In this document: positions 15,499 through 32,577 of the stretch, one piece after another
Numbering within the stretch: the stretch's first letter is position 1
How the letters are laid out: each line of letters opens with the position of its first letter
DNA from: Salinarchaeum sp. IM2453
Lineage (GTDB): Archaea > Halobacteriota > Halobacteria > Halobacteriales > Salinarchaeaceae
Direction: 5' to 3'
DNA: 64,000 nt
Assembly: GCF_019693215.1 (NCBI RefSeq)
Contig: NZ_CP081183.1
Span: forward strand, 1,677,226-1,741,225
The notes under the pieces: generated by a model
What the model was told of the DNA's origin: nothing
What the model saw: only the letters and a program-made list of their open reading frames with translations
Database searches by the model: none
Translations under genes and position numbers: made by a program

Positions 15499-18400
15499 CT
15501 ACCCGTCAGGTGGTGGATCCCCGCCTACTACTCCACGGATTGTGCGTGATTGTGCAGTATCTTCTGTGCTTGAGTACTGCCTCTTGGATTTGATTTCTGC
15601 ACTCACGAAATTCCACGTATGTATGCTATTACGGAAGATTTCGTCAACTTCCTCACTGGTGAGCGATGCAACATTGATCGGCTCAAGCTCTACATCTCCA
15701 TGCTCATTGATTCGATGGAGCCCATCATCCTGCCACGTGTATCCTCTCCCAACCACTTCAACCGTAAGGTATCCTGTACTCTTCAGCTTCTGTAGTATAT
15801 TCAATACCTGACGATTTCCAACGTCGACAGCAGGATGGTCAGCAATTTCTGCTGTCCTGAACGTTTCTGCTCTCCCTGCGACTTCAATCACTTGCTGCAT
15901 CCCATCACTCCATGTTTGTATGACCCGAGCTTCACCTGCTACCGGGACCCAGTCCGGAAGGGTATCCGTTAGGATATATACTACAGCTCCGTTTCCATCT
16001 CGTCCAAATCGCATGGCTGCCTGTAGCGTCTCATGCTCTCGCATATGCGTGAGGATGTCATTTCCAACACCAGTATACGCTAAGTGCGATCCCTTGGCTG
16101 GAGCATCCCGGTTGTCTGGATTCATGTCGGCATGTGATATATCGGTATCCTCAGCCGCAGCAACATCTGCCCAACTCTTTCGCGTCACTGCTTCGCCAAG
16201 ATATGCTCCCCATCGCTTGATATATTGATCTCCATAGTGGTTGCTTCCGATCACCACTCCAAGTCGCTTTTCTTTGAATGCATTACTACCAAGCACGTCT
16301 CCGTACCACTGTACACGGTCTGCTGGACCGTCGGTCACGACACCCGTTTCAAGATCAGCGGAGAGGATTCCACGATCAACATACTCCCGAAGCGCTGTCT
16401 TCGTCGTCACAACCCCCGGCTTTTTGCCATACTCCTCAGCAATCTCCTCAAGTAGTGCTCCGTCATTTGCCGTATGAACGTACTCTCGTGAATTATATGA
16501 TTTTACGTGCTCGCTTGCTCGAACAACATTGAGATTTAGCGTATTCTGAACATACTCGATCCGCTCGTCGGATGTGAGAACACTTCGATGGTCAAGCCGC
16601 GTACCGACAGCTGCTGTCCACATCTCTTTTGTTGGCGTCCCATCGAGGCAAACAATCCCGTTCGCATAGTCCATCGAAGGCGGCCGGAGGGTATGGATCT
16701 GCTCGGTTGCCTGACTATACACGGACCTTCCAATATCGGGGATGTCAGCGACCTCAAGCCCGTTGCCAAGATCGTTGCCAGCCAGCAGGCTGAAGACAAC
16801 AAGTGGTGCGTCAGCATGTGCTTGCGGGCTTTCAAAAACATGTGATTCGTCAGGTGTAACGCCATGTTCTTCAAACCAGAGAATCGCATCAGATCGCCGC
16901 TGTTCATCATCCCGGTTTGCAATGAGGTCTGTCCAGCTATCGAATGGCACACCGTCTGTGATGTCTAACCAGTGAGAGACTGGCCCCTGAACCTGCGGGA
17001 GTTCACTCTCGTACGCACTCGGGAACTCATCGATCACAACCGTTCGTCCGGCAGTGACGGTCTGCTGATACGCATGGCTGTAGTGGCCGATTAGTACGTC
17101 ATACTCGTCAGGGTCAAACTTCCATTTGCTTGTGTATGCGCAATTACATCCATCGTGTCGTTGACAGGGAAGTGGCTCTCCGAGATGATGTTCTGCTTTG
17201 GCATGAATCTCTTTTGGTGTTACTCCTCGTCGATACAGATCTCGGACACGCTCGGCCCATGCCTCTCCATGCTCTCCGTTTGCAGTATCACAATCATACT
17301 TGAAACTCGGCAATTGGTAGTACTCGAGTCCATGCTCTTGACACCAGTCTTTGATCTGGTCGTATTGCTCCTTGTGCCCTCGACGCGTGAGAAACGTAAT
17401 TGGCTGGCCGGTTCGCTTGGCAGCAAGAATCGCGCCGTACGATTTGCCCATTGACATGAGGGCCTCAATCAACACTTGTTCGCCGGATTCGTATGCCTCG
17501 ACGATCGCTTCAACAGTTCGCTCTCTGGCTTCGTCGATCGTGAGTGATCCACGATTGGAAGTCTGTGTCCAATCCCAGCCGGTCGTTGCTCTCGATAAAT
17601 CCCGAACAGCAGGCGGTAACACCGCGGTATGCTGGGGCTTGTTTTGATCCCCACCACTGTACTCAGGAATTGCCACACCAGCTTCACGGGCAGTTTCTAC
17701 TGTCTCCCACCAGTCTGCCCCAACAAGCCGATCCCACGGATTTGATATGATTCCTTGTTCTGCTGCAAAGAGTGCAAGCAGTCCAAATTCTTCGTCATGT
17801 TTGTGGTCATAAAAAACGCCCTTCCCGTTGTGATGGAGACTTTCTCCACTCTCACTTGGCCGGTATGCTGGATCGTACGTTTCCCACCCTGTCGCGTCGA
17901 CGCCGGTCTGTTGTGACTGAAGCGGGATACCCTGTGGATCAAGTCGAGCAATTGCCGCGAATATGGCTCTGATATCATCTACCGTCTCGGTTGGATCCGT
18001 TGTGGACGGTTGGTAGTTACTCAAATCCACGTGAGATTGGTTTGTATCATGACTGACGGATTCTGTGTGTTTTCGTGCATCGTATTCATCAAGAACCGCT
18101 TCGATTGCTCCCGTGTCCCACTTGCTAACATCATCTGCTGTTCCGCTGATTTTCTCTCCAGAGGCGACACAGACATGCTTATTTGAATAAATCTCAACCG
18201 TTGGTGCAGTGTCGTTTTCTCCCCACGGCTCTGTGTCGATCGTAAAGACGGCCTGCCCTTGATCCTCCGGTAGGTCTCCGATATACTGGGCATGAATTCC
18301 TCGTCCCGATGTTGAGATATCAGCATAAGTCATCCCCAGCTGATCGAGGATGTCAAGAAACGCTGGATGAACCTTCCCGGTCTCTGGACAGCGAACGTTA

Positions 18401-18900
18401 TCGCCATCAACGAATGCAAAGGGATCATCTGCCTGCTGAATGAATGTCCGACCGCTAAGACGAGGATCCACTTCCGCCATGCTGATGTCATCTCCATCCA
18501 GATAATTTGCTGCTAATCCCCACTTGTATCGAGCATCCTCATCGGCATCGGCATCCGGGTGGTCCTTATCGCCCCATGGAGCAAACGGTAACTTTTCGTC
18601 TTTGCGTTGTCCCATCCACTGTTCTCGTTCGAGTAATGTTGGTGGATACGTATCTTCCTGCGTCGCTGAGAAGGTTAGTTCATGCCACGAGTCAACTGTG
18701 TGATCGGTCTGGTCTGTGCAATGATCCCCGTTGGTGTTGCCAGTTCCGCTATTAGTGGATTTTGTGGGACGGTCTGACTCTGGTTGAGCATTTGTCGTCT
18801 CCAGACGCGCAAGATGTTTCTCACAGAGTGCTACGTTTATCTCGTATTCGACAGCTTCCCGCTCACACAATGCGCACTGGTTGGCTGCCGAAGGCGTCAT
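15499..18900 (-). CDS. Large primase/helicase-like replication protein (plasmid or provirus type)
   Basis: A protein of about 1133 residues. The N-terminus has a short zinc-finger-like Cys cluster (CALCEREAVEYEINVALC, then a His). About residues 70-270 resemble the archaeo-eukaryotic primase-like domain found in mobile-element replication proteins (FAFVDGDNVRCP, then STSGRGIHAQY). Around residue 485 a Walker A-like loop appears (EALMSMGKSYGAI), followed by a DE box (TVVIDEFPSAYE) about 150 residues later, and Cys-rich segments (PCQRHDGCNCAY) as in iron-sulfur helicases. The C-terminus looks like a small winged helix. The ATG at 18900 has GGAGG upstream; a TTG at 18948 in frame is less likely. 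It is divergent from a PhiH1-type repressor, suggesting an integrated plasmid or virus remnant. Confidence 0.7.
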   Translation of the reverse strand: MTPSAANQCALCEREAVEYEINVALCEKHLARLETTNAQPESDRPTKSTNSGTGNTNGDHCTDQTDHTVDSWHELTFSATQEDTYPPTLLEREQWMGQRKDEKLPFAPWGDKDHPDADADEDARYKWGLAANYLDGDDISMAEVDPRLSGRTFIQQADDPFAFVDGDNVRCPETGKVHPAFLDILDQLGMTYADISTSGRGIHAQYIGDLPEDQGQAVFTIDTEPWGENDTAPTVEIYSNKHVCVASGEKISGTADDVSKWDTGAIEAVLDEYDARKHTESVSHDTNQSHVDLSNYQPSTTDPTETVDDIRAIFAAIARLDPQGIPLQSQQTGVDATGWETYDPAYRPSESGESLHHNGKGVFYDHKHDEEFGLLALFAAEQGIISNPWDRLVGADWWETVETAREAGVAIPEYSGGDQNKPQHTAVLPPAVRDLSRATTGWDWTQTSNRGSLTIDEARERTVEAIVEAYESGEQVLIEALMSMGKSYGAILAAKRTGQPITFLTRRGHKEQYDQIKDWCQEHGLEYYQLPSFKYDCDTANGEHGEAWAERVRDLYRRGVTPKEIHAKAEHHLGEPLPCQRHDGCNCAYTSKWKFDPDEYDVLIGHYSHAYQQTVTAGRTVVIDEFPSAYESELPQVQGPVSHWLDITDGVPFDSWTDLIANRDDEQRRSDAILWFEEHGVTPDESHVFESPQAHADAPLVVFSLLAGNDLGNGLEVADIPDIGRSVYSQATEQIHTLRPPSMDYANGIVCLDGTPTKEMWTAAVGTRLDHRSVLTSDERIEYVQNTLNLNVVRASEHVKSYNSREYVHTANDGALLEEIAEEYGKKPGVVTTKTALREYVDRGILSADLETGVVTDGPADRVQWYGDVLGSNAFKEKRLGVVIGSNHYGDQYIKRWGAYLGEAVTRKSWADVAAAEDTDISHADMNPDNRDAPAKGSHLAYTGVGNDILTHMREHETLQAAMRFGRDGNGAVVYILTDTLPDWVPVAGEARVIQTWSDGMQQVIEVAGRAETFRTAEIADHPAVDVGNRQVLNILQKLKSTGYLTVEVVGRGYTWQDDGLHRINEHGDVELEPINVASLTSEEVDEIFRNSIHTWNFVSAEIKSKRQYSSTEDTAQSRTIRGVVGGDPPPDG

Positions 18901-19334
18901 CCTTGACCCTCCGTCTGCGTCGCATGGACGTGATCGGTTCTTAACCAACTGCTCGCTTTCGTCAGCAGGAATTGGTAATCATCGTTGACATCGGTAACTC
19001 GTGGATGTCGACCTACAGCGATAGACCAGCAAGCAAAATAGAGTACTCGATAGTCAAGCGATGCAACTGTCGTGTCGGGACTTTTTTGTCCCGAGACATC
19101 GTGTCTTAACATGGTGGTCCTGCTCTATTAGATCACCAGTCCGGACCTGCTGCGCCACCAGCAAGGTTCCGGAATTTTACTGACTCACTCGAATGTGAGC
19201 CTTGCGTAGGTGATCATACGTATTCATTTTACACTCTGGCGTATAAATTTAATCATAGTACTATTATCTGGGATGAATTGAATATGACCTGTCCCTGAGA
19301 GTAATAATACTCTGTGCTGTAGTCTGTACCAAGC
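18901..19334. promoter_or_regulatory. Divergent control region of the primase/repressor pair
   Basis: This 434-bp region separates the minus-strand replication gene from the plus-strand repressor. At 19075-19094, TCGGGAC and GTCCCGA form a 7-bp stem around a TTTTTT loop. GATCACC at 19131-19137 and GGTGATC at 19209-19215 are a wider-spaced inverted repeat. The AT-rich stretch TATAAATTTAATCATAG near 19243 is the likely promoter of the repressor. Such a divergent, palindrome-bearing control region is what a lysogeny or copy-control switch would need; that role is inferred. Confidence 0.45.
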
Positions 19335-21871: not shown

Positions 21872-22477
21872 CTCATTTGAAGAGCAGCCCGACCGACCGA
21901 ATTGCTACAGGTTATCTAAATATTATAGCTACTGGCCCTCGGATTGATTACACCTTTGACCAAGAGGTTTCAATTCCTTCTCGGATTTTCTACCTACTGT
22001 AACAACCTGTACGTCATCCAGGACATCTAATCGGGGTGTGTTTCAATTCCTTCTCGGATTTTCTACCTACTGTAACACCCTTTCGCTCAGAGCTGTCAAC
22101 AGAATCCGTTTTGTTTCAATTCCTTCTCGGATTTTCTACCTACTGTAACCCTAAGCGAACTCGAACCCGGCACCGAACTCGAACTGTTTCAATTCCTTCT
22201 CGGATTTTCTACCTACTGTAACCGCCGCCCTGCTCTATCAGGTCGAGCGTGTCGAGAAGTTTCAATTCCTTCTCGGATTTTCTACCTACTGTAACCGCAT
22301 GAACGGCGGAATTTTGTTTCCGATTCCTGATAGTTTCAATTCCTTCTCGGATTTTCTACCTACTGTAACAGTTGTGTTGCCGTCGTCGACCTCAGTCCAA
22401 TAAACGTTTCAATTCCTTCTCGGATTTTCTACCTACTGTAACTTCAGATTCAATCGGGGCAATATTCGAGATGTAGA

Positions 22478-22699
22478 GTTTCAATTCCTTCTCGGATTTT
22501 CTACCTACTGTAACCTTGTGATACGGCTTTCGCAGTCGTAATCGGTGCGCCGTTTCAATTCCTTCTCGGATTTTCTACCTACTGTAACCTTGTGATACGG
22601 CTTTCGCAGTCGTAATCGGTGCGCCGTTTCAATTCCTTCTCGGATTTTCTACCTACTGTAACCTTGTGATACGGCTTTCGCAGTCGTAATCGGTGCGCC
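22478..22699. repeat. Three tandem copies of a 74-bp CRISPR repeat-spacer unit
   Basis: The same 37-bp spacer (beginning CTTGTGATACGGCTTTCGCA) occurs at 22515-22551, 22589-22625 and 22663-22699, each with its repeat. This is best explained by slippage or unequal recombination inside array 1 rather than three independent acquisitions. Confidence 0.95.
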
Positions 22700-24753
22700 G
22701 TTTCAATTCCTTCTCGGATTTTCTACCTACTGTAACCCGACTCCGTTTCTGGTATGCTCGCATGGGTCAGAGAGTTTCAATTCCTTCTCGGATTTTCTAC
22801 CTACTGTAACCTGACAGTTCGACGCTGCCAGCATATCCTATTTCAGCAGTTTCAATTCCTTCTCGGATTTTCTACCTACTGTAACGGCCGCAGACCTGAC
22901 AACCACGGTCTTCTCCGCTCAAGTTTCAATTCCTTCTCGGATTTTCTACCTACTGTAACCCCTCCGTCGCGACAATGACGGCGACGATCCATGCCGGGTT
23001 TCAATTCCTTCTCGGATTTTCTACCTACTGTAACCATTACCCGAACCTCACAGTTCCCACAGCTCCGGCAAGTTTCAATTCCTTCTCGGATTTTCTACCT
23101 ACTGTAACGACCTGACAACCACGGCTTTCGCCGTTCATCGCCCGGTTTCAATTCCTTCTCGGATTTTCTACCTACTGTAACCCGCCGTCGGGATTTTGCT
23201 CAGTACCGTTCATCGATTAACGTTTCAATTCCTTCTCGGATTTTCTACCTACTGTAACATTGTCCGTTTGGTCTGTTCTATCAGTCATTATTATGTTTCA
23301 ATTCCTTCTCGGATTTTCTACCTACTGTAACTGCCGGTTGTGCCGACTTACTGATCTCGATGTGTTTCAATTCCTTCTCGGATTTTCTACCTACTGTAAC
23401 GTCTTTATCGTGATTGTCTTGTCGGTCGTTCTTGCGGTTTCAATTCCTTCTCGGATTTTCTACCTACTGTAACGTCAATGGTTGTTTCGTCGCTATCGTC
23501 TTTTGAATAGTTTCAATTCCTTCTCGGATTTTCTACCTACTGTAACTTGTTGATACATCTCGTTGTTTAGGTAGTCCAAATCGTTTCAATTCCTTCTCGG
23601 ATTTTCTACCTACTGTAACAACAGTGACGTGAAGAGATATGGTGTGAGATCGTGGAGTTTCAATTCCTTCTCGGATTTTCTACCTACTGTAACCGGTCGG
23701 TGATGGATCATGCCACGTTCAATTGACTGTTTCAATTCCTTCTCGGATTTTCTACCTACTGTAACGCCAGCTCGTCGGCCCCGAGGAGTGGAGCATTCGA
23801 GTTTCAATTCCTTCTCGGATTTTCTACCTACTGTAACATCGGTAGGTCTGCTTCCGACAATTTATCCAGAATAAGTTTCAATTCCTTCTCGGATTTTCTA
23901 CCTACTGTAACGTTTAGATCAAAATCAACAGGCGACCACAGAGACAGTGTTTCAATTCCTTCTCGGATTTTCTACCTACTGTAACAGCCGTTCGTGGCCT
24001 CAACAGCTCCGATGGTATCGTTTCAATTCCTTCTCGGATTTTCTACCTACTGTAACCTTGTAAGACAAGTTCCAGAATGGCAAACAACTGTTAACGTTTC
24101 AATTCCTTCTCGGATTTTCTACCTACTGTAACACCATGCGAGGAAACGGCCGCTGACCTACGTCGGCCGTTTCAATTCCTTCTCGGATTTTCTACCTACT
24201 GTAACGATCGCTCTTGAGGATGCCAACGAAGATAGACATCCTCGTTTCAATTCCTTCTCGGATTTTCTACCTACTGTAACCGTGTGTCTCGATAGTATCC
24301 TGGTCGATCTCAATGAGTTTCAATTCCTTCTCGGATTTTCTACCTACTGTAACGTATTCTCCAGCCTCATCAACTGAAAATGTTATCTGTTTCAATTCCT
24401 TCTCGGATTTTCTACCTACTGTAACCCGGCCGGTTTTTGCCGCGTATGCAGCATCTTGCTTGTTTCAATTCCTTCTCGGATTTTCTACCTACTGTAACTT
24501 GTCGTCGGGCGGTCTGGTGAATCTATTGTTAACTGTTTCAATTCCTTCTCGGATTTTCTACCTACTGTAACATGTATCAAGCCGCAGAAGGCGCTGACGA
24601 GCGGCTCAGTTTCAATTCCTTCTCGGATTTTCTACCTACTGTAACACCATGCAACACGAAGGAAATCACAAACGGCGTGAAGTTTCAATTCCTTCTCGGA
24701 TTTTCTACCTACTGTAACGAGGAACTATGACATATGCATATAAACCGGACGGA

Positions 24754-24893
24754 GTTTCAATTCCTTCTCGGATTTTCTACCTACTGTAACTTCAACATGA
24801 CAAGTTTCTACCAGAAACAGGGAGTTTCAATTCCTTCTCGGATTTTCTACCTACTGTAACTTCAACATGACAAGTTTCTACCAGAAACAGGGA
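24754..24893. repeat. Two tandem copies of a 70-bp CRISPR unit
   Basis: Spacer 24791-24823 (beginning TTCAACATGACAAGTTTCTA, 33 bp) is repeated exactly at 24861-24893. A second internal duplication in array 1. Confidence 0.95.
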
Positions 24894-24968
24894 GTTTCAA
24901 TTCCTTCTCGGATTTTCTACCTACTGTAACGTCAACCCCACCAGTAGCATGGCACAAACCGCAATCCC

Positions 24969-25266
24969 GTTTCAATTCCTTCTCGGATTTTCTACCTACT
25001 GTAACCCCATATCTTCGCGGTCCCCGACGGGTTTCACGGTGTGTTTCAATTCCTTCTCGGATTTTCTACCTACTGTAACGTCATACACGCTGATCCCGGC
25101 AACGCTCCCCTCCTCGAGTTTCAATTCCTTCTCGGATTTTCTACCTACTGTAACCCCATATCTTCGCGGTCCCCGACGGGTTTCACGGTGTGTTTCAATT
25201 CCTTCTCGGATTTTCTACCTACTGTAACGTCATACACGCTGATCCCGGCAACGCTCCCCTCCTCGA
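24969..25266. repeat. Tandem duplication of a 149-bp two-spacer CRISPR block
   Basis: Two consecutive spacers (25006-25042, beginning CCCATATCTTCGCGGTCCCC, and 25080-25117, beginning GTCATACACGCTGATCCCGG) are repeated in the same order at 25155-25191 and 25229-25266. Duplication of a two-unit block shows homologous recombination between repeats. Confidence 0.95.
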
Positions 25267-25818
25267 GTTTCAATTCCTTCTCGGATTTTCTACCTACTGT
25301 AACATCTGCTATCTGTGCGGTCGTGTCCTTCATACAAGATGTTTCAATTCCTTCTCGGATTTTCTACCTACTGTAACGTGTAGTGTCCGTCTATTGCAAC
25401 CGGACTGAACAATCGTTTCAATTCCTTCTCGGATTTTCTACCTACTGTAACAGTGCCAATGTGGGGGTTCTGGTGGTTTTTCTAATTGTTTCAATTCCTT
25501 CTCGGATTTTCTACCTACTGTAACGGGCTCACGCCTAACGGGTTCTGGTGGCTCACGTTGTTTCAATTCCTTCTCGGATTTTCTACCTACTGTAACAATA
25601 ATCAACGCGACGATGACAATCCCGGCAACAGGTTTCAATTCCTTCTCGGATTTTCTACCTACTGTAACCGTCTTGATATTTGGGGGGTACTTTCAGACTC
25701 ATGCTTTGTTTCAATTCCTTCTCGGATTTTCTACCTACTGTAACATTCGACGAGTGTCTGGAGTTCCTCAACACTCAGCCAGTTTCAATTCCTTCTCGGA
25801 TTTTCTACCTACTGTAAC

Positions 25819-25842
25819 AGTGGACTTGGGACGATGATAACG
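25819..25842. other. 24-bp junction between two oppositely oriented CRISPR arrays
   Basis: AGTGGACTTGGGACGATGATAACG, given here only as its ends AGTGGACTTG and GATGATAACG, lies between the last array 1 repeat and the first array 2 repeat. It is shorter than any spacer in either array and far too short for a CRISPR leader or promoter. Both flanking repeats look intact. Confidence 0.9.
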
Positions 25843-28800
25843 GTTGCAACAAGTAGAAAATCCAGTAAGGAATTGAAACTCTCAGTCGGGGACCTGTCGC
25901 CAGTGAATGCGCGCTGTTGCAACAAGTAGAAAATCCAGTAAGGAATTGAAACTGGTCGGGGTGTTCGTCGGCGAAGTCCTCCAGCCCCAGTTGCAACAAG
26001 TAGAAAATCCAGTAAGGAATTGAAACCTGGCTGTTCTCGACGAGGGTTTCCATCTGCTGGATGGTTGCAACAAGTAGAAAATCCAGTAAGGAATTGAAAC
26101 CGCACTGAAGGCGTGTATCTCTGTTGGGACCATTTTGTTGCAACAAGTAGAAAATCCAGTAAGGAATTGAAACTCTGATGAGATCGAGTTCGTCGGCAAA
26201 AAGACACTCCGTTGCAACAAGTAGAAAATCCAGTAAGGAATTGAAACATCCACAAGATGGGCTGTCAGTTGCAAGTAGCCCGAGAGTTGCAACAAGTAGA
26301 AAATCCAGTAAGGAATTGAAACGTGGAGGACGCGGCCTCATTGAGCTCGCCATGGACATGTTGCAACAAGTAGAAAATCCAGTAAGGAATTGAAACGTGG
26401 CTGATAAAGTTATACACGCCAGCCAGCGCAATCGTTGCAACAAGTAGAAAATCCAGTAAGGAATTGAAACCTGTTGAGTTCAACGCGACATCAAACACGA
26501 TGTGGTTGCAACAAGTAGAAAATCCAGTAAGGAATTGAAACAAAATTGAGTTACGAGATACACTGGCGTCAGACCCGTTGCAACAAGTAGAAAATCCAGT
26601 AAGGAATTGAAACTGGTCTGTTAGTTCACATGTTTTTGCTACAACTTTCGTTGCAACAAGTAGAAAATCCAGTAAGGAATTGAAACATATTGACCGACTT
26701 CCCAATACTTCCCGGACACTCAGTTGCAACAAGTAGAAAATCCAGTAAGGAATTGAAACGGATGACGACACGGAGGACCCAACAACGATCCCGACTGTTG
26801 CAACAAGTAGAAAATCCAGTAAGGAATTGAAACGGGGTATGCCCCCGAACAATCCCGCGCTGACGTTGAGAGTTGCAACAAGTAGAAAATCCAGTAAGGA
26901 ATTGAAACGGTCCCGCCCTTCGCCGCCACCTCCATACCGAAGTGTTGCAACAAGTAGAAAATCCAGTAAGGAATTGAAACCGGTTTGACGTGCGGGAATA
27001 CGACTCAGATGGAAATGTTGCAACAAGTAGAAAATCCAGTAAGGAATTGAAACAAATTCGGTCGTTGAGGAGAAGGACCCCGAGAAAGAGTTGCAACAAG
27101 TAGAAAATCCAGTAAGGAATTGAAACATGACCGTGAGTAAAGTATCGCTGGGCCTCTGGTTTTGTTGCAACAAGTAGAAAATCCAGTAAGGAATTGAAAC
27201 AACCCCCGTAGGACGGTCCGACGCAAGCCATATCTCGTTGCAACAAGTAGAAAATCCAGTAAGGAATTGAAACTATCGGCCGTGTAGCCGTGTATGCATG
27301 GTACGAGACCGTTGCAACAAGTAGAAAATCCAGTAAGGAATTGAAACAACGTTGTCGACTCGGACGAAACCCGGTCGTCTGTGATGTTGCAACAAGTAGA
27401 AAATCCAGTAAGGAATTGAAACGTGGCTCGATAACACTATCTGGAAGTGGTGGACCGTTGCAACAAGTAGAAAATCCAGTAAGGAATTGAAACACGATAC
27501 AGTAAACGCGGAACGGAAGTTTGACGATCCGTTGCAACAAGTAGAAAATCCAGTAAGGAATTGAAACGCTCACGTTCACCCGCGCCGGGCGCGACGGCGT
27601 GAAGTTGCAACAAGTAGAAAATCCAGTAAGGAATTGAAACGACTTCGCGTATCACGCGGGCGTCACGCCCGATGTCGTTGCAACAAGTAGAAAATCCAGT
27701 AAGGAATTGAAACGCGAGCATGTGGATTCGGATGTGACCGTGACCGAGTGGGTTGCAACAAGTAGAAAATCCAGTAAGGAATTGAAACACATCGAATGAC
27801 CAAATCAGACGTAGGGACAATGGTGGTTGCAACAAGTAGAAAATCCAGTAAGGAATTGAAACTATTGACAGAGAAAGAAGCAGAGCGATTGATTAACTGT
27901 TGCAACAAGTAGAAAATCCAGTAAGGAATTGAAACTGGGGTAATTCACTTCATCAGCCCGGAGGCCACACCTTGTTGCAACAAGTAGAAAATCCAGTAAG
28001 GAATTGAAACAACTGGTAAAGTCAAGCGGGAAGGTAACACCAATATTTGAGTTGCAACAAGTAGAAAATCCAGTAAGGAATTGAAACACAAAGGCCCATA
28101 CTTCACCGCCACGCTATCAGACGGTTGCAACAAGTAGAAAATCCAGTAAGGAATTGAAACGATGACGGACTAACGCCTGAATCAGAACAGCAACAACGTT
28201 GCAACAAGTAGAAAATCCAGTAAGGAATTGAAACGATTGTTGGTGGGGATTTGATAGCGATTCAGGAGTGGAGTTGCAACAAGTAGAAAATCCAGTAAGG
28301 AATTGAAACTATGCCGCGATTGTTGGTTGGAGCGGGTTTGTGTACTTGTTGCAACAAGTAGAAAATCCAGTAAGGAATTGAAACATGATTAATTATGCTT
28401 GGATTATGGGATGCATTCAGGTTGCAACAAGTAGAAAATCCAGTAAGGAATTGAAACCAGTGGACTACGCCGACTCCGTTTCTGGCATGCTGTTGCAACA
28501 AGTAGAAAATCCAGTAAGGAATTGAAACCGGTCGACACGGAAGAGGTTGAGCTGGACGCTGGTGAGTTGCAACAAGTAGAAAATCCAGTAAGGAATTGAA
28601 ACCCCCTCCCTTTCTTACCGCTTATCTGACAGAAACTGTTGCAACAAGTAGAAAATCCAGTAAGGAATTGAAACAATCCTATGGCAGTTGCTGAGGCAAT
28701 GCGAACAGAAGAGTTGCAACAAGTAGAAAATCCAGTAAGGAATTGAAACTTGTCGGTTTCCCCGGAATGGAAGCCCATTGGGGGTAGTTGCAACAAGTAG

Positions 28801-30511
28801 AAAATCCAGTAAGGAATTGAAACCGATTTTCGCAAACAAATGATCCATGATAAGCGAACGGTTGCAACAAGTAGAAAATCCAGTAAGGAATTGAAACAAG
28901 GAACACAATACATCCTGAGGGTAGAGTTACTCAAGTTGCAACAAGTAGAAAATCCAGTAAGGAATTGAAACCCCCTTTCTTTCTCCCCGCTTATCTGGCA
29001 GAAACTGTTGCAACAAGTAGAAAATCCAGTAAGGAATTGAAACATTGACTTCTATGCAGGGGAGAGGGAAGGTGTTGATGGGTTGCAACAAGTAGAAAAT
29101 CCAGTAAGGAATTGAAACATTAACAAATTTCAATAAACCTACCTGAAAAAGTGTGGTTGCAACAAGTAGAAAATCCAGTAAGGAATTGAAACTTTTTCAT
29201 CATGGCGATGCGCGACTAACCAACTAATGTTGCAACAAGTAGAAAATCCAGTAAGGAATTGAAACTTCAGCGATTGTCGTCCGACCTTTGAGCTGTTCAC
29301 AAGTTGCAACAAGTAGAAAATCCAGTAAGGAATTGAAACTGAAAGTCGGCATATGCACATTGTCACAAAACAGTTGCAACAAGTAGAAAATCCAGTAAGG
29401 AATTGAAACATTTCATCCTCGTTATCTTCACCCTCAACGTACACAGTTGCAACAAGTAGAAAATCCAGTAAGGAATTGAAACTGGACGACGTTAATGACT
29501 ACATCGTCGGAGAGTACCGTTGCAACAAGTAGAAAATCCAGTAAGGAATTGAAACCCGGGGCATCGAGAGACAATCACGCTGGCGTTCTGTCGTTGCAAC
29601 AAGTAGAAAATCCAGTAAGGAATTGAAACAAACAACGACGATCGGGCTTGATATCCCTGCCGTGTTGCAACAAGTAGAAAATCCAGTAAGGAATTGAAAC
29701 TTATGCTGGCGCACGCCAAGCCGAGGAAGATGATGCGTTGCAACAAGTAGAAAATCCAGTAAGGAATTGAAACAGCAGTGATCGCAATCACGTAATCGTT
29801 TGGCGGTCCGTTGCAACAAGTAGAAAATCCAGTAAGGAATTGAAACCGTGTCACTCCACCACTTTGGCGGTTGTCCGACGAGGTTGCAACAAGTAGAAAA
29901 TCCAGTAAGGAATTGAAACTGATCCGGCACAAACTGCACTTCGAGTTTCGGATGTGAGTTGCAACAAGTAGAAAATCCAGTAAGGAATTGAAACTGGCTG
30001 TCCGCAATGACATATCGCATTCCGCGAGGATGTTGCAACAAGTAGAAAATCCAGTAAGGAATTGAAACGGCCACCAGAGTCTTTTCTGAGGCTCACAGAC
30101 GACCGTTGCAACAAGTAGAAAATCCAGTAAGGAATTGAAACAGACTGTCGAAACCCCTCGCTCCTGTCGGCGTTGGTTATGTTGCAACAAGTAGAAAATC
30201 CAGTAAGGAATTGAAACGAACGGAGTCGAGATTCTTGAACCAGATGATCCGCAGTTGCAACAAGTAGAAAATCCAGTAAGGAATTGAAACAACGCAGATC
30301 TGTTTGACTTTGTTGACTCGTGGCTACTGTTGCAACAAGTAGAAAATCCAGTAAGGAATTGAAACTCCATAGCCGTTATCGTGAGGTTCCCATATCCGTA
30401 GTTGCAACAAGTAGAAAATCCAGTAAGGAATTGAAACTGACCGTTTCCGACACAGTGAAGCGCCAGATTAGAAAGTTGCAACAAGTAGAAAATCCAGTAA
30501 GGAATTGAAAC
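25843..30511 (+). CRISPR. CRISPR array 2: 64 repeats of 37 bp, 63 spacers
   Basis: The plus strand shows 64 identical repeats beginning GTTGCAACAAGTAGAAAATC and ending GTAAGGAATTGAAAC, with spacers mostly 33-39 bp. First repeat 25843-25879, last 30475-30511. The repeat is the reverse-complement relative of the array 1 repeat, differing at 7 of 37 positions. With the ATTGAAAC handle at the 3' end, transcription to the right is expected. There is no leader-like sequence on the left because array 1 starts there; the right flank (30512 onward) is ordinary DNA. No exact duplicate spacers were seen, but one related spacer pair is present. No cas genes lie nearby. Confidence 0.97.
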
Positions 30512-31722: not shown

Positions 31723-32277
31723 TTGTTAATAGAAACGGGGCGGTAGCAATTGCAGCAGGGTACAATCGTCGTGAATTCTGCGGTTGTTTAAAATCTATTT
31801 TCCAGCTTCTCATCGGATAGACCCTGTGTATTGATTTTTGTGCACAGGCATTTATTGTACGGCTCTTTCCCATAGCTAAGGAGACTATCTCCTACATGGT
31901 AGTACTGTTTCTTGGCTTGTTGCCATAGCGCAGATTTACATCTCAAATCATCGTTAATCTGCTCTATCGTGGCGGATCAAAAACAAATCGTTGACTAAAT
32001 CGTACTGGACTGGCTTGCTGTAATTGAAGCGCTCACTCGGCAACTGATAGGAGAATGAAACGAATCCACCCACTCATGGCAGTCGATTGAGGGGATTGCA
32101 GTCGAACAGAGACTGCAACCAAGTGAATGTCTGCTACAATTGTCGACCCACCTGCCAATTAGCGGGGATGTAAGTTGATTCATCGACTCCTGAGGGTTTG
32201 GAGATCTATTGGGGGTCGACAAAAAGACTTTATTCCAACCGGGAGATAGAATGGCTATAGCCCGTGATTTGGGCATG
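31723..32277. other. Gap before CRISPR array 3, including its probable leader
   Basis: No intact gene in 555 bp. A plus-strand stretch around 32010-32200 reads like a degraded protein (LQPSECLLQLSTHLPISGDV, then FIDS) broken by stops, possibly a decayed transposase. The last 100 bp (CAAAAAGACTTTATTCCAAC near 32219-32238) should contain the leader and promoter of array 3, because the degenerate repeat is at the other end. Confidence 0.4.
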
Positions 32278-32577
32278 GTTTCAGATGGACCCTTGTGGGG
32301 TTGAAGTCTGTCTGTGTGGCTCCGAGAATAAACACTCCTCCAGCGTGTTTCAGATGGACCCTTGTGGGGTTGAAGTGAGAAAACACCAGATGCCTTCGGA
32401 GATCGATGCGAGTTTCAGATGGACCCTTGTGGGGTTGAAGTGCAACGAGACCGATCTCATTGATAGACATATCATAGTTTCAGAAGGACCCTTGTGGGGT
32501 TGAAGTCGGCTTCGTAGCGTATTCATCTCTCGGGGTGTGTTGTTCTTGTTTCAGACGAATCCTTGTGGGGTTGAGGT
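32278..32577 (+). CRISPR. CRISPR array 3: five 30-bp repeats of the haloarchaeal type I-B kind
   Basis: Repeats start at 32278, 32347, 32412, 32477 and 32548. The first three read GTTTCAGATGGACCC then TTGTGGGGTTGAAGT. The fourth has one change (CAGAAGG) and the fifth is clearly degenerate (CAGACGAATCC, then TTGAGGT). Spacers are 39, 35, 35 and 41 bp. The repeat matches the 30-bp family used by haloarchaeal type I-B systems. Decay at the right end marks the trailer, so the leader is on the left and transcription goes right. No cas genes are visible; effector proteins would have to act from elsewhere in the genome, or the array is a relic. Confidence 0.93.

Follow-up and report, generated by a model that had tools for sequence, protein, structure and literature searches.

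Two large CRISPR arrays that lie head to head in the genome of Salinarchaeum sp. IM2453 are best read as a decapitated type I-D CRISPR-Cas locus, from which the cas operon and both leaders were deleted; the probability of this reading was put at approximately 75%. The arrays were analysed within a 64-kb stretch of DNA (the window; positions 1677226-1741225 of an assembly that consists of a single contig of 2,656,678 bases). They occupy window positions 21967-30511, are arranged in opposite orientation and carry 115 spacers, 110 of which are distinct. The features of the block, in window coordinates, were as follows.

21967..25818, minus strand: left CRISPR array, 53 identical 37-bp repeats and 52 spacers (47 distinct); probable sense direction right to left, with the polarity taken from the PAM and comparative leaders
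22515..22699, minus strand: tandem triple spacer, a repeat-mediated duplication
25006..25266, minus strand: tandem duplicate of a two-spacer block; one spacer (25006, 25155) matches a helicase-bearing element, with a GTA PAM
25819..25842, no strand: junction between the arrays, 24 bp, AGTGGACTTGGGACGATGATAACG; putative scar left by the loss of the cas operon and leaders
25843..30511, plus strand: right CRISPR array, 64 identical 37-bp repeats and 63 distinct spacers; probable sense direction left to right, with the polarity taken from the PAM and comparative leaders

These repeat counts confirmed the description given in an earlier note on this DNA, which had reported 53 and 64 intact repeats, 115 spacers and a gap of 24 bp. 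The left-array repeat is GTTTCAATTCCTTCTCGGATTTTCTACCTACTGTAAC on the plus strand (reverse complement, GTTACAGTAGGTAGAAAATCCGAGAAGGAATTGAAAC) and the right-array repeat is GTTGCAACAAGTAGAAAATCCAGTAAGGAATTGAAAC; the two differ at seven of 37 positions. Spacers were 32-40 bp in the left array (n = 52) and 33-40 bp in the right array (n = 63). Redundancy in the left array was due to one spacer that was present three times and three others that were each present twice. All 53 left and all 64 right repeats were perfect copies. The absence of any change in 4,329 bp of repeat sequence (117/117 repeats) gives a 95% upper bound of approximately 7 in 10,000, or about 0.07% divergence. This homogeneity fits a recent event without proving one, and it dates the event weakly, since active arrays are homogeneous too.

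The arrays have regular, identical repeats and distinct spacers, and there are no cas genes nearby. When the window was searched by tblastn with 21 Cas proteins, namely the type I-D and type I-B sets of this genome plus canonical I-D effector proteins, there was no match below E = 0.05, which bore out the earlier statement that the 64 kb contains no cas gene. A 1149-aa open frame at window positions 15499-18948 had no Pfam match. The genome contains two Cas1 genes, both located outside the window, one in a type I-B operon at about 2.41-2.43 Mb and the other in a type I-D operon at 1.093-1.102 Mb. The latter encodes Cas6, Cas10d, Csc2, Csc1, Cas3', Cas4, Cas1 and Cas2; it is the only complete I-D set in the genome, contains its single Csc2 gene and its single PF10040 Cas6 gene, and is next to repeats other than those of the window. 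It is located between two outward arrays with 36-bp repeats that differ slightly between left and right. The left array of this resident locus (G000:C1:1088496-1090225) is interrupted by about 1.7 kb of DNA with a 332-aa ATPase-like open frame (GSRGSGKTALGHR motif), which is possibly an integrated element.

Neither window repeat was found elsewhere in the whole single-contig genome, so that the third locus for which the earlier note had proposed a search, with the same repeat next to cas genes and a leader, was not present. Neither repeat was found in the only two other genomes of the family, and the genes that flank the window locus were not syntenic in those genomes. A genome-contig repeat search returned two single matches in Marinobacter, which were taken as chance. 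Related repeats were, however, present in other haloarchaea in a class-wide search, and the loci that carry them provided the basis for comparison.

In all nine of the two-array I-D loci that were inspected (eight foreign loci, in G035, G362, G273, G121, G033, G234, G360 and G125, and the 1.09 Mb locus of this genome), outward arrays flanked the cas operon, the distance from array to array was 9.7-10.8 kb, and the left and right repeats differed. In four further, partial loci (G016, G218, G180 and G071) one array was seen beside the operon. The left and right repeats of the eight foreign loci were identical at 29-33 of 37 positions, compared to 30 of 37 for the window pair, and the window repeats were identical to repeats adjoining I-D cas operons at 29-30 of 37 positions. 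Since outward arrays with differing repeats represent the normal I-D layout, the anomaly of the window is its missing middle. Haloarchaeal I-D operons fell into two branches (L036:2863-5460 and L059:15119-17560); the window repeats could not be assigned to one or the other. In the branch to which the resident operon belongs, Cas10d was missed by the curated NCBIfam and Pfam models and was detected by the PADLOC Cas10d model.

The window was the sole case of a head-to-head junction within about 30 bp among the 392 haloarchaeal genomes sampled, in a search limited to repeats with GTTTCAAT/ATTGAAAC ends. The junction pattern also occurred in four further genomes; none of these sites held an array, and they were rejected as chance matches.

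Each of the 22 I-D array starts inspected had a conserved leader of about 110 bp on the side that faces the cas genes. These leaders comprise a palindrome, CTTCGTCGACC...GGTCGACGAAG, around a TATA-like box resembling TTTATAAA, followed by GAGAAAGCTTTATTG and usually by CCCCCT at the repeat; in the I-D locus of this genome CATACC directly precedes the first repeat. In the leader alignment (G035, G362, G033 and other loci) the palindrome and its TATA-like box were followed by TGTACAGCCCC. The palindrome may be a site at which a regulator or adaptation proteins bind. A profile built from the 22 leaders recovered all of them. In the whole genome its only clear matches were both leaders at 1.09 Mb, with E about 1e-15, and the next-best hit had E = 0.05. 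In the window there was no match at the junction, in the flanks or elsewhere (best E = 8.7). There is thus no leader at the 5' end of either window array, in agreement with the earlier note. Similarly, neither the two repeats nor the sequence up to about 300 bp from the junction contained an archaeal TATA-like box.

A third array in the window, 1.8 kb from the I-D pair, has an intact leader.

32179..32277, plus strand: I-B mini-array leader, almost the same in sequence as those of both I-B arrays that adjoin the 2.41-2.43 Mb operon
32278..32577, plus strand: the third array, of type I-B, with five repeats of 30 bp (Rfam CRISPR-DR24), of which the last is degenerate

The detection of this leader served as a positive control, since it showed that leaders are recognisable in this genome. 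The mini-array is probably served by the I-B operon at 2.41-2.43 Mb.

The window arrays were assigned to type I-D because their repeats belong to the I-D repeat family, carry the 8-nt ATTGAAAC handle and retain a conserved stem. This 3-bp stem is located immediately before ATTGAAAC and was maintained among relatives by compensatory changes (TCC/GGA, CCC/GGG, GCC/GGC and TTC/GAA). The earlier note had argued from the premise that ATTGAAAC marks the 3' handle side of the crRNA; it is instead the repeat-derived 5' handle. Useful protospacers came from haloarchaeal genomes only and were located in three elements (G235:C52, G240:C4 and G332:C1). With the spacers read in the direction of the ATTGAAAC handle, the 5' triplets on the ATTGAAAC side were GTA, GTG, GTG and GTC for four protospacers, each matched by a different spacer (two spacers per array); no common downstream motif was observed. 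A fifth PAM, GTA, was deduced because spacer 23694 overlaps one of the spacers at 1.09 Mb, and two overlaps through diverged homologues (GCG and GGA) were left out of the count. These triplets conform to the published type I-D PAM, GTN (PMC10212523).

Judged by these PAMs, by the 22 leaders of the nine complete and four partial loci and by the conservation of the repeat stem-loop, the proposal that both arrays are read outward from the middle is supported. The earlier note had also considered that transcription might run inward from the outer flanks, or that a bidirectional start might lie inside a repeat, as ways to account for inner array ends that have no leader. Either arrangement is scarcely credible: the side of the PAM and the comparison leaders contradict inward reading, the outer flanks contain no leader match, and a start inside a repeat is at odds with the lack of an archaeal TATA box in both repeats.

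At least one spacer target was inside a UvrD-like helicase gene. In a haloarchaeal element that carries such a gene (L112:2785-5462), four spacers from both window arrays matched within about 1 kb, which suggests that this element represents a common target family not contained in the phage and viral collections that were searched. When both arrays were compared by BLAST with phage and plasmid records, no match was convincing, and viral contigs yielded no protospacer in six pattern scans and one protein search. Some spacers of the left array overlapped spacers of the right array, on opposite strands or shifted, and spacers of both arrays overlapped in this way with those of the I-D and I-B arrays elsewhere in the genome. 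This shared sampling of elements indicates that the window arrays were once active in this lineage. Spacers directed against cas genes were considered as a cause of the loss of the operon and rejected, since no spacer matched cas genes beyond low-complexity chance in the loci tested.

The deletion reading starts from an ancestral locus that would have consisted of an outward left array, a leader, a cas operon of about 10 kb, a second leader and an outward right array. A single and perhaps recent deletion would then have removed the whole operon and both leaders, leaving 24 bp between the arrays. The ends of this deletion were probably located within leader-proximal spacers, since the 24 bp resemble neither of the I-D leader ends (CCCCCT or CATACC, each followed by GT). 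Against a deletion, the 24-bp junction could be assigned neither to a spacer nor to a leader, and no close relative with an intact locus was available from the two other genomes of the family, so that the event is reconstructed from sequence.

The head-to-head arrangement might otherwise have arisen by inversion or fusion, in which two arrays from different places were joined at breakpoints inside the arrays and no operon was lost from between them. The meeting of two different repeats in opposite orientation without leaders would be expected from such an event, and the repeat-mediated duplications in the left array show that recombination has occurred. An inversion would also predict a reciprocal locus in which leaders accompany both repeats; the genome contains none, and the normal I-D layout already accounts for both the polarity and the repeat difference; this origin was therefore considered very unlikely. 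Of the earlier suggestion that the leaders were deleted when two arrays fused or inverted, the loss of both leaders fits the data, whereas fusion or inversion is not needed to explain what is the usual I-D polarity.

It is also unlikely that the junction is an assembly artefact, with the living genome retaining the cas operon and leaders and the assembler having misjoined the arrays. The array block is highly repetitive, a cas operon was the expected neighbour in all of the comparison loci, and the genome completeness was 98.55%, which is below 100%. Nevertheless, the assembly is a single contig and the 24-bp junction is unique in sequence. Moreover, the arrays have different repeats and no full spacer in common, so that there is no obvious route to a fold-back or repeat-collapse join.

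If the operon and leaders were deleted, the remnant arrays would have no leader for integration and are predicted to be unable to gain spacers. They would be frozen and, with no promoter in the sense orientation, probably mostly silent. The left array could be read in sense only if a transcript entered from the right and first crossed the right array in antisense, and the converse applies to the right array; any crRNA would depend on such read-through together with in-trans processing by the I-D Cas6 from 1.09 Mb.

Conversely, the arrays may still function in trans, with read-through from the plus-strand gene on the left or the minus-strand genes on the right, or a cryptic start in a spacer, providing pre-crRNA that the I-D Cas6 and effector from 1.09 Mb would process and use. 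The genome contains a complete I-D set, ATTGAAAC and the preceding 3-bp stem are common to all of the repeats, and the window arrays and I-D arrays have sampled the same targets. In addition, the interval that separates the EamA gene from the left array had no terminator-like site, in a scan whose consensus was bacterial although the host is archaeal. However, the resident repeat is 36 nt long with a TTC/GAA stem and a 4-nt loop, compared to 37 nt, TCC/GGA and a 5-nt loop in the window. The one resident I-D PAM that could be deduced was TCA, not GTN (n = 1), there is no TATA box near the junction, and read-through must first traverse about 4 kb of antisense array. Resident Cas6 might cut RNA from the window arrays, yet the repeats it serves are unlike those of the window in length, stem and loop. 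The view of the earlier note that processing proteins are supplied from elsewhere describes a possible arrangement, although the only I-D Cas6 and effector set of the genome serves a different, 36-bp repeat. Function in trans was considered quite unlikely on this evidence, and it is similarly doubtful that the leaderless pair was kept because it still works as a 115-spacer memory, read from outside and served by divergent resident I-D machinery.

The deletion reading makes the window locus a natural experiment, in which two full arrays would have lost their promoters, integration sites and cas genes in one step while the cell kept another I-D system and a I-B system. The locus allows questions to be asked about the rate at which stranded arrays decay, the expression of leaderless arrays and the strictness of repeat recognition between two I-D systems. 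The comparison of layouts across related loci also explains an array orientation that at first seems odd.

Orphan and leaderless arrays are known, and the retention of both full arrays, fused and with both leaders lost, is an unusual variant of them. One close likeness is to the haloarchaeal two-array I-D loci (G035, G362, G033 and the 1.09 Mb locus of this genome), which have two outward arrays, slightly different 37-bp repeats ending in ATTGAAAC (36-bp at 1.09 Mb), spacers of about 36 bp and a GTN PAM; the window locus differs in that there is no operon or leader between its arrays, which are separated by 24 bp rather than 9.7-10.8 kb. In Haloquadratum walsbyi HBSQ001, also a haloarchaeon, the cas block between two flanking arrays was lost and an orphan remnant of five spacers and a leader was kept (PMC3119063). 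That remnant retains one leader and only five spacers, whereas the window retains both full-length arrays and no leader. Locus F of Sulfolobus solfataricus is likewise a long leaderless array, with 88 spacers, and is inferred to be inactive in acquisition (PMC4390879); it is a single array, whereas the window contains two arrays head to head, from which the lost neighbour can be inferred. Finally, E. coli lineages retain orphan type I-F arrays after the loss of their cas genes (PMC8616872), as is likely for the window. These remnants are small, are expressed and target I-F cas genes, whereas the window arrays are large and leaderless, with no cas-targeting spacer found in the loci tested.
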